Source: a virus
Length of the DNA: 39,209 nucleotides
Reading direction: 5' to 3' (one strand)
Virus record (IMG/VR): IMGVR_UViG_3300025309_000028
Coordinates: 1 to 39,209 of that record
Shown here: positions 3,001 through 11,936 of the stretch, one piece after another
Position numbering within the stretch: position 1 is the stretch's first letter
Layout: each line of letters opens with the position of its first letter
Notes under the pieces: generated by a model
The model's database searches: none
What the model was told of the DNA's origin: nothing
What the model saw: the letters and a program-made list of their open reading frames with translations, nothing else
Made by a program: the position numbers and the translations under genes

Positions 3001-5100
3001 ATGAAAACCCACTACTCCAGCGCCGAGCTTGCCGCGATGAAGCTGCCGGGATTGCCGAAAACAAAAAAAGGGGTGCTAGAAAAGGCAGTGCGCGAAGGCT
3101 GGGCGAAGCAAAAGCGAGCTGGTTGCGGCGGCGGGTTTGAATACGCCGCTTCCAGCCTGCCAGCCGAGGCGCAAGCCGCTTTGCGTGCCGCTCATGTTGA
3201 GCGGGTGGTACAGAGCTGCGCGCCACTGGTAGTGGCACCGGTCACGGTTAAAACCACGGCGGCGCCGTGTTATGAGGTGGATCGGGCGAGCAGCACGGCG
3301 CGGCAGCGCGAAGAGGAATTGGCGCGCAGCACCGTGCTGCGCAAGCTGGATGAGTTGCAGCACGCGGCGGGTTCAAGCCGCGAGGCGGCGATGACCACGC
3401 TGCTGACGATGGCGAGTGCGGGCACGCTGGGTGATGCGCTGTGTGCCACGCTGCGCATGGCACGGGATGCGCGCGGCAAGAAGGGCAATGAATACCCTTC
3501 GGTGCGCTCGTTAAAACGCTGGATCGCCAAGAGCAAAGCTGGTGATCTAATGCCCAGGGTTGCGCAAGCCGATATGCGCATCCAGCCGTGGCACGCGCTG
3601 GCGATAGCGCTGCGCCAACGCCCGCAAGGCAGCAGCCTGACATGGCTGCGCGAACAGATTGCCGCGCAGTGGGATGCCACATGGGGCGAAACGATACCCA
3701 GCTACCACGTGGTGCGCCGTTTTTTCACCGAGAAATTCAGCCAGATAGACCAGTTAAAAGGCCGCTACACCGGCTCGAAACTGCGAAGCCACAAGTTCTA
3801 CCAGCACCGCACCAGCGAAGGGCTGGCACCGGCGATGGAAGTCCACGCCGACGGCTGGAATACCCACTTCACCGCGCCGCATCCGGTCACCGGCGAATTT
3901 GTCACCTACGAGGTGTGGCACTTCCATGACGTGGCCACGCGCTTCGTCACACCGCCCGGCCTTGGCCTGACTGAGAAATTTGAAGTAATTGCCAAGGGGT
4001 TGGAAAACTACATCCGCTACTTCGGCGTGCCACTGATCGTGATGACCGACTCTACCAAGATCATTCGCGGATCGGCGCGCTTCACCAAAGACCCGGTGCG
4101 CTCGATCGAGGAGCGTGTCGGCTGCACCATCACCCACCCCAAAGAAGTCGGCAACTCGCAGGCCAACGGCATCTGCGAAAACTTCAACACCAGCTATCTG
4201 GACAAGCGCAGCCGCGAGCTGGCCACCTACCAGAGTAAAGGGCAGATGGACGAACTCACCTTCAAGCGCGTCAGGAAGCTCACCGCCGCGATGGTCAAGG
4301 CCGCCAACGCTGGCGATCTGGCCGAGCGCGACCAGAAGAAGCGCGAGGCAGAGCGCATGGGTAAAGGGCTGGTGTTCACCAGCCATGCCGAGGCGGTGGA
4401 CTGGATCAAAGGCATCTGCGCCGAATACAACCACCGGCCGCACCGCGGCCTCCCGAGGGTGCGCGGCGAAGACGGCAGGCTGCGCCATCAGACCCCGGCA
4501 GAAGCGGTGGCTCAACACGCCGCAAATGGCTGGAAACCGGAGCTGATGGGTGACACGCCGGAAGCGCACGAAGTTTTCCTGATTGACACATTCCGCCCAC
4601 GCGTCATCGTTAAGGTCACCCGCGAAACCGTCAGCCCATACGGTGGCATGCGCTTCCGCAATGCCGAGGCACTCGGCCACTGGAACGGCAAGGAGGTCGT
4701 CGTGGTGTACGACATCCACGAATGGCAAAGCGTGCGTGTGGAAGATATGAAGGGCGCGTTGATCTGCATGGCCGAATTTGTCGCCGCGACCGGCTACCGC
4801 GCCGTCACTGCCTACGAAGACGCCGAAGAGAAGCGCGCCAAGGCGCAGATGCGCCGCCGCGAGAAACAGATCGCGCAGATCGAGGCGCGCAACCCGGCAG
4901 CGGCCATCGAAGAGAAGACCGTTAAAACCATCGTGGACTTCATCGATATTAACCCTCAGCCGGCCCCGCAGCGCGAGCTGACCGCAGCCGATTTCATGCA
5001 GGAAAAAACCGAAGAAAAGGAAAGCAACTTCGGCGACACCGTGATGTGGTTGCACGGAAACGGGGAAGACCCGCGCAATAAAGAAGTGGCCGCTCAATAG
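3001..5100 (+). CDS. A: MuA-type DDE transposase
   Basis: The 699-residue protein matches Mu transposase in length (663 in Mu) and order. Residues about 5-65 form the Mu-type winged DNA-binding domain (SSAELAAMKLPGLPKTKKGV). The RNase H-like core carries D284 (VHADGWNTHF), D350 (IVMTDSTK) and E393 (QANGICENFN), a credible DDE triad. A beta-barrel (about 520-600, HEVFLIDTFRPRVIVKV) and a basic coiled C-terminal region for contacts with the B protein follow. It catalyses strand transfer of the phage ends during integration and replicative transposition. It is followed 62 bp later by B. A long antisense frame runs through it but is a shadow. Confidence 0.96.
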   Translation: MKTHYSSAELAAMKLPGLPKTKKGVLEKAVREGWAKQKRAGCGGGFEYAASSLPAEAQAALRAAHVERVVQSCAPLVVAPVTVKTTAAPCYEVDRASSTARQREEELARSTVLRKLDELQHAAGSSREAAMTTLLTMASAGTLGDALCATLRMARDARGKKGNEYPSVRSLKRWIAKSKAGDLMPRVAQADMRIQPWHALAIALRQRPQGSSLTWLREQIAAQWDATWGETIPSYHVVRRFFTEKFSQIDQLKGRYTGSKLRSHKFYQHRTSEGLAPAMEVHADGWNTHFTAPHPVTGEFVTYEVWHFHDVATRFVTPPGLGLTEKFEVIAKGLENYIRYFGVPLIVMTDSTKIIRGSARFTKDPVRSIEERVGCTITHPKEVGNSQANGICENFNTSYLDKRSRELATYQSKGQMDELTFKRVRKLTAAMVKAANAGDLAERDQKKREAERMGKGLVFTSHAEAVDWIKGICAEYNHRPHRGLPRVRGEDGRLRHQTPAEAVAQHAANGWKPELMGDTPEAHEVFLIDTFRPRVIVKVTRETVSPYGGMRFRNAEALGHWNGKEVVVVYDIHEWQSVRVEDMKGALICMAEFVAATGYRAVTAYEDAEEKRAKAQMRRREKQIAQIEARNPAAAIEEKTVKTIVDFIDINPQPAPQRELTAADFMQEKTEEKESNFGDTVMWLHGNGEDPRNKEVAAQ

Positions 5101-10446: not shown

Positions 10447-10737
10447 ATGAATACCGATTGGAACAGCATCCTCACCACCCACCACGCGCGGGCGTTTAGT
10501 GTCGCCGCAAGCTGCCCGGCGCGTTCGGCTGCGGCAGTTCGGCGTTTGATAAATCTTGGATTGGAAACGGGAGCGGCATTCCGTGATATTGGAACAGCAA
10601 TAAAAAACCTGTCCGCGCGCCCTGCGGAAGCCCCTCCGGCACCGACAGGAACGGCTCTTCCAGTTGCAGCGCAGCCAGCATCAGAGACTGGTAATGCCGC
10701 TCCAAAAACACGCGCCACGCGCCGGAAGAAAGCGTAG
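10447..10737 (+). CDS. Doubtful 96-residue frame behind mor
   Basis: An ATG with AAGGAG nine bases upstream opens a frame starting MNTDWNSILTTHHARAFSVA. The first 16 codons lie outside the leftward gene and could be genuine phage sequence; the remainder is antisense to that gene, uses atypical codons (GGA, ACA, CCA) and becomes Ala/Pro-rich with a basic tail. It may be an older gene truncated by insertion of the leftward gene, or a real overlapping frame. Confidence 0.35.
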   Translation: MNTDWNSILTTHHARAFSVAASCPARSAAAVRRLINLGLETGAAFRDIGTAIKNLSARPAEAPPAPTGTALPVAAQPASETGNAAPKTRATRRKKA

Positions 10738-10969
10738 CCAGATCATGCTCCGGATCGAACGCCAGCCCGGCAATAGCGGCATCCGCCTCGCGCTCGTAAA
10801 GCGCGTCGTAGGCCAGCGTCTGGATGGCGGAGAGGTTCGCCCGAAAAAGTTTATTCAGCGGCCACAAGGCCTCGCTGACCTGATCGCCGTCGAGCTTGAA
10901 CGGCCTGACGTGTTTGATGGGGCAGCCCAGATGCTGTTCGGTGAAACGGTCGAGCAGGTCAATTTTCAC
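10496..10969 (-). CDS. Leftward gene between middle and late modules, unknown function
   Basis: A GTG at 10967-10969 preceded by GGAGA starts a 157-residue protein (MKIDLLDRFTEQHLGCPIKH...). Codon use is host-like and the sequence has normal globular composition: WPLNKLFRANLSAIQTLAYD, an acidic helical middle and a hydrophobic end (TGFLLLFQYHGMPLPFP). It runs against the phage operons, as accessory lysogenic genes (morons) do, and overlaps a weak rightward frame. No family is recognised. A hairpin GGGTGG/CCACCC lies upstream at 11018-11034. Confidence 0.72.
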   Translation of the reverse strand: MKIDLLDRFTEQHLGCPIKHVRPFKLDGDQVSEALWPLNKLFRANLSAIQTLAYDALYEREADAAIAGLAFDPEHDLATLSSGAWRVFLERHYQSLMLAALQLEEPFLSVPEGLPQGARTGFLLLFQYHGMPLPFPIQDLSNAELPQPNAPGSLRRH

Positions 10970-11046
10970 GGGGTATCTCCTGTGTTGGTTGGGAATGGGG
11001 ATTTCCAGTTTAACGCAGGGTGGATACCCCACCCAATAGCAGGCTG

Positions 11047-11076
11047 TTGACAGCAGTGCCAAATAGCGCGCAAAAT
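11047..11076 (+). promoter_or_regulatory. Promoter of the Rha leader with an internal copy of the phage-end motif
   Basis: TTGACA (11047-11052) is a perfect -35 box; CAAAAT (11071-11076) lies 18 bp further as a 4-of-6 -10 box. Between them, 11056-11074 (GTGCCAAATAGCGCGCAAA) matches the right-end transposase sites at 39065 and 39087 in 18 of 19 positions. A transposase bound here would cover the promoter. This is the only internal copy this close that was noticed. Confidence 0.6.
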
Positions 11077-11235
11077 CCGCCTCGGTGCTTCAAACACCAA
11101 ACAGCATAGGCGGAAGACCGCGCCCGAAAAATGTGGTTTTTTTACGTCCGTAGTTTATCTATGGCCGGGTGTGGGGCTAATAAAATAGCGGCTTGCCGCG
11201 AATATGCCCGCCGACCTATGCCGGTTTGAAGCACC
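11077..11235 (+). ncRNA. C4-like antisense RNA and its target in the leader of rha
   Basis: The upstream part folds as TCCGCCT (11076-11082)/AGGCGGA (11108-11114) enclosing the small hairpin GGTG-CTTCAAA-CACC. Its 12-mer GGTGCTTCAAAC (11084-11095) is perfectly complementary to GTTTGAAGCACC at 11224-11235, and GCATAGGCGG (11104-11113) pairs with CCGACCTATGC (11211-11221) with one bulged A. Two antisense boxes followed by two target boxes ahead of an antirepressor-type gene is the layout of the C4 RNA of phages P1 and P7. Further hairpins (11188-11199, 11242-11258) make this 313-bp gene-poor stretch highly structured. Confidence 0.62.
11131..11229 (+). CDS. Leader ORF, 32 residues, within the C4-like region
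   Basis: The frame MWFFYVRSLSMAGCGANKIA... ends at a TGA overlapping the antisense target boxes, so translation would cross the region blocked by the C4-like RNA. A similar 'FFYVR.L.MAGCGA' peptide recurs, from memory, in leaders of P4- and P1-like Icd/Ash genes. There is no clear ribosome site. In P1 the C4 target also lies at a leader frame coupled to the downstream antirepressor. Confidence 0.4.
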   Translation: MWFFYVRSLSMAGCGANKIAACREYARRPMPV

Positions 11236-11282
11236 TGGCCGCCCACGGCCTTCGTGGGTTGTCCCTTCAAAGGAGCATAGAT

Positions 11283-11936
11283 ATGAACCAACTCGTCCAC
11301 CAATCCGGTGACCGCCTCATCGTCACCACCCTCGAAATATCCAACCACTTCGGCAAGCGACATGATGACGTGCTGAAGGCTATAAAAAACCTCGAATGCT
11401 CTCAAGAATTTAGCCGCCGCAATTTTGCGGGCACCTCCTACAATGACAGCCAGAACAAGCCTCGCCCCATGTACGAGATCACCCGCGACGGATTCACCTT
11501 CCTGTGCATGGGCTTCACCGGCCCGCAGGCGGCGGTGTGGAAAGAGCGCTACATCGAGGCGTTTAACCAGATGGAGGCCGCGCTGCGCGGCGATCTGCCC
11601 GCGCTGCGGCGCGAGTTGCCGCTGGCGCTGGAGAATGGTCACCTGAAAGACATGGTGCGCGCCCGCGATGAGATCATCCAGGCCAAGGATGGCGTTATCA
11701 TGGGGCTGCAAGACAAGCTGATCGGCTCGCAAGGGCGGCAGATCAGGCTGATCGGGCAGGTGGCGGCGATGCAGAAGCGCCAGCGCGACCGCGAGATCAT
11801 CCAGCTCATCGAGCGCATGGAGTCCGAAGGCAAGCCGCGCCAGGAGATCGCCGCGATGACCGGCAAACCGTTCAACTACATCCGCCAGCGGGTGTTCATC
11901 GCCCGCAACGAGGGGCGGATCGGGGGTGCGGCATGA
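11283..11936 (+). CDS. rha: Rha-family phage regulatory protein
   Basis: The 217-residue protein begins with the Rha signature (RLIVTTLEISNHFGKRHDDV, then LKAIKNLEC...F....Y.....KPRPMYEITRDGFTFLCMGF, then TGPQAAVWKERYIEAFNQME), followed by a coiled, basic C-terminal region. Rha proteins are implicated in phage regulation and often act like antirepressors. SD AAAGGAG lies 7 bases before the ATG. The structured leader suggests control by antisense RNA. The next gene overlaps by ATGA. Confidence 0.88.
   Translation: MNQLVHQSGDRLIVTTLEISNHFGKRHDDVLKAIKNLECSQEFSRRNFAGTSYNDSQNKPRPMYEITRDGFTFLCMGFTGPQAAVWKERYIEAFNQMEAALRGDLPALRRELPLALENGHLKDMVRARDEIIQAKDGVIMGLQDKLIGSQGRQIRLIGQVAAMQKRQRDREIIQLIERMESEGKPRQEIAAMTGKPFNYIRQRVFIARNEGRIGGAA

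Follow-up and report, generated by a model that had tools for sequence, protein, structure and literature searches.

A candidate C4-class antisense RNA cassette of the sRNA-Xcc1 type upstream of rha in a Mu-like phage

Introduction

In phage P1, RNase P releases the C4 RNA, which occludes a ribosome site (PMC5320573). The annotated order at this locus is a1, b1, C4 RNA, a2, b2, icd and ant1, and Rfam models find there, in order, c4-a1b1 (above threshold), a sub-threshold isrK and C4 (above threshold). In the Salmonella prophage Gifsy-1, IsrK (RF01394) is a short terminated RNA that binds its own read-through mRNA and makes that mRNA translatable (PMC4825925).

A third RNA, sRNA-Xcc1 (RF02221), is placed outside Rfam's C4 clan. 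It was cloned in Xanthomonas, where Northern blots show a free RNA of ~88 nt, and was presented as a novel sRNA of that genus for which numerous targets are predicted (PMC2996969). Control by HrpG/HrpX is given in that paper and in the title of Chen et al. 2011, as cited in PMC12444791. In the integron cassette that is most widespread in Xanthomonas, the same RNA precedes symE, and a 'divergent regulatory mechanism' is mentioned there (PMC12444791); it also occurs among the vesicle-borne RNAs of Xylella, in a table that lists C4, isrK and sRNA-Xcc1 side by side (PMC12189769). Recent work treats sRNA-Xcc1 as a virulence sRNA (PMC12189769, PMC12444791). Our literature search, subscription papers including Chen et al. 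2011 excepted, found no work joining sRNA-Xcc1 to C4, to antirepressors or to an adjacent-gene target.

Results

The window, by which we mean the whole 39-kb stretch of DNA analyzed here, is an IMG/VR viral record. Pfam searches identified a MuA transposase gene (HTH_Tnp_Mu_1 and Mu-transpos_C), Gam, GemA and Mor, so that MuA and Mu early/middle genes occur together, bearing out the proposal of an earlier note, made from the letters alone, that this is a Mu-like (transposable) phage. The CI-like repressor proposed in the same note corresponds to an HTH_3 repressor gene at 1208-1684. At the left end of the window lies a tRNA gene (79-152; CAT anticodon by reading), so the contig probably starts in host DNA; a minus-strand frame at 112-396, with a tandem repeat of ~23 residues, overlaps this gene. 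Another minus-strand frame (10496-10969, ~157 aa, without a Pfam match) is divergent from the cassette that concerns us here, which comprises the following features:

11047..11076, plus strand: cassette promoter, TTGACA (11047-11052), 18 nt, CAAAAT (11071-11076); 10 of 12 consensus matches
11083..11143, plus strand: predicted short RNA, complementary to 11215-11235 through its box a1 (11084-11095) and box b1 (11104-11110)
11117..11143, plus strand: intrinsic terminator of the short RNA (ACCGC...GTGGT, then T7), found by reading
11163..11248, plus strand: antisense-type RNA module, Rfam sRNA-Xcc1 (RF02221), 54.9 bits (cut-off 53), E 2.7e-7
11215..11221, plus strand: box b' (CCTATGC), loop of the module's second hairpin, pairing with b1 and b2
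11224..11235, plus strand: box a' (GTTTGAAGCACC), linker and start of the module's closing stem, pairing with a1 and a2
11242..11258, plus strand: hairpin CCCAC/GTGGG separating the antisense module from the ribosome site, with two-sided changes
11265..11280, plus strand: boxes a2 (CTTCAAA, 11265-11271) and b2 (GCATAG, 11275-11280), flanking the rha Shine-Dalgarno AAGGAG (11270-11275) and complementary to a'/b'
11283..11936, plus strand: rha, the presumed regulated gene, encoding a Phage_pRha protein of 217 aa (PF09669, E 1.4e-30)

Rha is presumably an antirepressor, judging from its family associations and the company of genes in which it is found. The promoter at 11047 is the sole promoter-like site in 10950-11400, where shuffled sequences average 0.2. 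A simple scan for terminators missed the one at 11117-11143 because its loop is longer than 8 nt. All RNA ends given for the cassette transcripts are predicted.

Two complementarities claimed earlier, one perfect over 12 nt and one bulged over 10 nt, proved exact. The sequence GGTGCTTCAAAC (11084-11095) perfectly complements GTTTGAAGCACC (11224-11235), and GCATAGGCGG (11104-11113) pairs with CCG-A-CCTATGC (11211-11221), leaving a single bulged A. We resampled 11040-11290 300 times with a first-order Markov model: none of the resamples contained a 12-nt inverted match between segments at least 20 nt apart, and the longest such match was 11 nt, seen once. A third copy of the boxes, CTTCAAA-GGA-GCATAG (11265-11280), had gone unnoticed and spans the rha Shine-Dalgarno. 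The combined box pair has no further site anywhere in the 39-kb window. The order is thus promoter, a1/b1 with terminator, b'/a' module, a2/b2 at the ribosome site and rha, so that boxes complementary to a'/b' lie both upstream and downstream of the module, as in C4.

The earlier note had taken the upstream hairpin (11076-11114) for the C4-like RNA and had suggested a search with the Rfam C4 model. The C4 model (RF01695) matched nothing in 11000-11320, even at E up to 10, and nothing at E 0.001 across the whole record, whereas P1 C4, our positive control, scored 68.8 bits. The match is instead to sRNA-Xcc1, and it lies at 11163-11248, just above the gathering threshold; modules of relatives score up to 76.4 bits on this model, and 18 of 20 scanned relatives are members. 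Because the order in the window is the same as in P1, we identify the upstream hairpin with the a1/b1 element, and the position of C4 is taken by the sRNA-Xcc1 module. The same order, with a1/b1 and terminator, antisense RNA, a2/b2 and antirepressor gene, characterizes C4/immI of both P1 and P7 (RF01695; c4-a1b1 RF03163).

C4 and the window module also share a plan, comprising a closing stem, two hairpins, b' in the loop of the second hairpin and a' in a linker. In the window module the closing stem is 9 bp long (11163-11171 with 11232-11240), its stems covary, and GCC (11241-11243) follows. Shared too are U-A-U-G-G at the 5' end and, in both consensus structures, which were compared by eye, ACC after the stem. 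Compared with C4, the closing stem of the window module is shorter and its first hairpin has an A-rich internal loop (AAUA...GAAUA); the module is also predicted to act on rha directly, unlike P1 C4, without an icd-like coupled frame. Since the C4 and sRNA-Xcc1 models do not cross-match, we claim no more than a likeness of form and place.

A U before the 5' end and RCC after the stem are usual in RNase P substrates. U precedes the module's 5' G in 61 of 66 loci, and RCC follows the closing stem, by reading, in ~22 of the 27 genome loci found with Rfam; because the pattern used to pick the other loci required RCC, that count would be circular for them, and only U-1 was used from that set. PMC12710915 also gives an RCCA motif for RNase P substrates. 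At two other loci (L104:4039-4124 and L157:2992-3076) the closing stem runs straight into T6 (GGCCTTTTTT) with no RCC, so there the module could serve as its own terminator. One viral contig (L125) encodes a type II hammerhead ribozyme (3258-3342; 58.3 bits, cut-off 37) on the same strand as its sRNA-Xcc1 module and ~1.2 kb away.

The cassette also resembles that of IsrK, with a promoter, a short terminated RNA, a read-through antirepressor mRNA and complementarity between the two. On sequence grounds alone, the predicted short RNA at 11083-11143 is the counterpart of both the P1 a1/b1 element and IsrK, being short, terminated and complementary to its own read-through mRNA. The P1 a1/b1 element scores 35.1 bits on the isrK model, and the window scores 11.8 bits against a gathering score of 50 bits. 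Ten relatives gave no isrK match at E up to 1, so we do not claim isrK membership. IsrK works via a coupled upstream frame (orf45), whereas such a frame is not conserved in the window's relatives. The leader frame that had been proposed across the target boxes opens with the ATG at 11204 and reads on for ~35 codons, over the boxes and into rha. We rejected it because its start codon is not conserved: six of seven aligned relatives have ACG, AAC or AAG at this position, and L008 alone keeps ATG.

We next consider conservation across loci. The window and seven rha-linked relatives (L002, L004-L008 and L082) align across promoter, short RNA, terminator, module and ribosome site. TTGACA is invariant and CAAAAT nearly so in these eight loci, and the terminator stem is paired in 8/8. 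Between a1/b1 and b'/a', 88% of cells in the alignment are paired, compared with 28-58% in slid controls, with two-sided changes at 9 of 15 pairs. Between a2/b2 and b'/a' the values are 86% versus 33-58%, with two-sided changes at 7 of 12 pairs, and for the internal stems 93% versus 32-41%, with two-sided changes at 11 of 37 pairs. These two-sided changes far exceed those in slid and shuffled controls. In the closing stem and basal hairpin of the module, 100% of cells are paired and two-sided changes occur; the hairpin at 11242-11258 is likewise fully paired, with 3 of its 5 pairs changed on both sides. The covariation between complementary boxes that the earlier note had named as a check is therefore strong.

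Multiple loci beyond this alignment gave the same picture. A pattern drawn from the 5' part of the module only identified 96 stretches in viral contigs, some of them chance matches without the other parts; removing duplicates and requiring the 3' strand left 59 distinct box pairs. In these 59 loci, a1/b1 matched the locus's own module at a mean of 14.0 of 18 letters (8.55 for other loci) and a2/b2 at a mean of 12.1 (8.2 for other loci), with neither score reached in 20,000 permutations. The own partner was best or tied for a1/b1 in 54 of the 59 and for a2/b2 in 47. For 27 genome loci, picked by the Rfam model and hence independent of the motif pattern, the means were 12.3 versus 8.35 (a1/b1) and 11.4 versus 8.2 (a2/b2), again with 0/20,000 permutations; related loci are not independent, yet their box sequences vary widely. 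We relied on box matching because duplex energies, computed for a 31-nt core against flanks, are dominated by conserved stems and are a poor test of a2/b2. Compared across loci in this way, the three-way complementarity is conserved and covarying, the module's fold is maintained, and the families of the genes downstream recur.

Those downstream genes belong mostly to antirepressor families or encode the SymE toxin. By Pfam, Rha lies downstream in 14 scanned loci, including that of the window, and the other domains found, Bro-N, KilA-N, AntA, ORF6N and P22_AR_N, are all phage antirepressor domains; several cassettes precede short proteins without a Pfam match. One 2.4-Mb genome (G142) has four cassettes (L197, L222, L237 and L239) before four SymE-like toxin genes, two of the four proteins being identified by Pfam and the rest by eye, and the boxes of each cassette match the ribosome site of its own symE. 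The box sequences of these four cassettes differ from one another, as if kept from cross-talk. A cassette in genome G078 (L223) also stands before a SymE gene.

Among named phages, Escherichia phage Rac-SA53 has the cassette before a gene annotated as antirepressor (ant), and Aggregatibacter phage S1249 has an antiterminator Q gene, the cassette and then Ant (annotated antirepressor), an order that recalls that of Gifsy-1. The cassette is also present in PhiR5_2 and Moraxella phage Mcat15; box matches in all four phages were judged by eye. Of 5,426 complete E. coli genomes, 158 contain a match, and the 10 best lie under AntA/AntB antirepressor genes. A broader genome scan found the sRNA-Xcc1 family in 26 of 369 class members (E 0.001), 12 of them above the cut-off.

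Some relatives of rha have a different RNA in this position. A true C4 lies directly upstream in L013 and L093, a true c4-a1b1 and an isrK match occur in L013 and L084, and sRNA-Xcc1 lies upstream in L004 and L085. Thus, two RNA families interchange ahead of one gene family. At another locus (L009:1780-1863), a C4 match lies ~640 nt upstream of a rha relative, not directly before it.

At approximately ten loci the module is retained although no ribosome site downstream matches it, so some modules may act in trans on other genes. One is on the Sulfuricystis multivorans plasmid pSTJ2 (L096), where 1880-2130 contains a short RNA and a module with matching a1/b1, and the next ribosome site is without a2/b2; this is possibly a trans-acting or a decayed cassette. 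L119, L146, L151 and L163 resemble it. DNA similarity searches of our region against named phages and plasmids returned only a Sulfuricystis plasmid carrying the module, and such searches with a symE cassette against plasmids and with L123 against phages found no match.

From these comparisons, we propose the following mechanism. The promoter at 11047 would produce a short a1/b1 RNA, mostly stopping at the terminator ending at 11143, and read-through transcripts would carry the sRNA-Xcc1-type module (11163-11248) plus rha. RNase P probably frees the module's 5' end, as the U-1 and RCC hallmarks suggest. The unpaired b'/a' of the module would then bind b2/a2 on either side of the rha Shine-Dalgarno, preventing translation in cis, and a module made by a resident prophage may block the rha of an incoming phage in trans, which would contribute to immunity. 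Because the short RNA has the same boxes as the ribosome site, it could serve as a decoy, sequestering the module and so lifting the repression, like IsrK in Gifsy-1. We infer the direction of these effects from the position and sense of the parts, by which the module should repress rha and the short RNA should relieve it.

Predicted folds bear on whether such RNAs act as separate molecules or as one leader. If pairing distance in the read-through transcript is left free, the minimum-energy structure joins a1/b1 to b'/a' in cis, and this long-range helix is favored by 15.4 kcal/mol relative to local folding (5.4 in shuffles, sd 2.8). A limit of 92 nt on pairing distance makes b'/a' pair instead with a2/b2 around the rha Shine-Dalgarno, also in cis. 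The fold switches with pairing distance, so the three box copies compete. When two separate molecules are folded together, the gain is 11.2 kcal/mol for the short RNA with the module and only 1.2 kcal/mol for the module with the ribosome site, in a nested-fold program that cannot draw loop contacts.

A rival reading is a purely cis-acting leader, with a1/b1, b'/a' and a2/b2 forming mutually exclusive stems of one mRNA, as an attenuator or folding switch, and no trans RNA. Both the strongly favored long-range helix and the alternative pairing around the Shine-Dalgarno speak for it. We nevertheless consider it unlikely, as a terminator separates the first two modules, the antisense module retains a C4-like shape with its U-1 and RCC ends, and sRNA-Xcc1 is a free RNA in Xanthomonas (PMC2996969). 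The polarity originally proposed, in which the hairpin at 11076-11114 is the C4-like repressor and blocks rha through the leader boxes at 11211-11235 as its sole target, has in its favor that the hairpin belongs to a short RNA with its own promoter and terminator and is complementary to the leader. It is somewhat less probable still: the hairpin is of the same sense as the ribosome site of rha, which rules out its pairing with that site or covering it, the P1 element at the hairpin's position is a1/b1, with C4 RNA the next module, and the short RNA of the IsrK system activates (PMC4825925). What survives of that proposal is a C4-class antisense cassette before an antirepressor-type gene; the roles of the two modules are swapped.

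If the module were instead a virulence-type trans sRNA with chromosomal targets, as described for sRNA-Xcc1, its place before rha would be incidental. The published view of the family fits this, with HrpG/HrpX control and many predicted targets (PMC2996969 and the title of Chen et al. 2011 as cited in PMC12444791). Dozens of phage loci have self-matching boxes at the next gene's ribosome site, and each of the four symE cassettes of G142 matches its own symE, which makes this reading very improbable for the cassette. A chance inverted repeat or a remnant has nothing in its favor beyond the shortness of the boxes; the resampling speaks against it, covariation in relatives refutes it, and we give it almost no weight. 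We conclude, with a probability of about 0.78, that the locus upstream of rha is a C4-class antisense cassette in which the module represses rha and the short RNA titrates the module.

Discussion

A wider conclusion, which we hold to be fairly likely, is that sRNA-Xcc1 (RF02221), throughout the family, is not a virulence RNA but an antisense RNA of the C4 class, occluding the ribosome site of its neighboring gene. In phages that gene would encode an antirepressor, and in integron cassettes of the Xanthomonas type it would encode the SymE toxin; a short self-cognate decoy RNA would turn the antisense RNA off. C4, IsrK and sRNA-Xcc1, which have separate names, would then all belong to a single three-part switch that is mobile and widespread. 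The main value of this proposal is a testable function for RF02221, a family widely reported by annotation tools.

For phage biology, the cassette would place an RNA layer of antirepressor control in a Mu-like phage and in many other temperate phages, and it would tie the symE toxin found in integron cassettes to an immunity RNA of phages. Because the boxes are short and vary freely, each phage would have its own specificity. Such box specificity could explain immunity groups, with partners predictable from their sequences.
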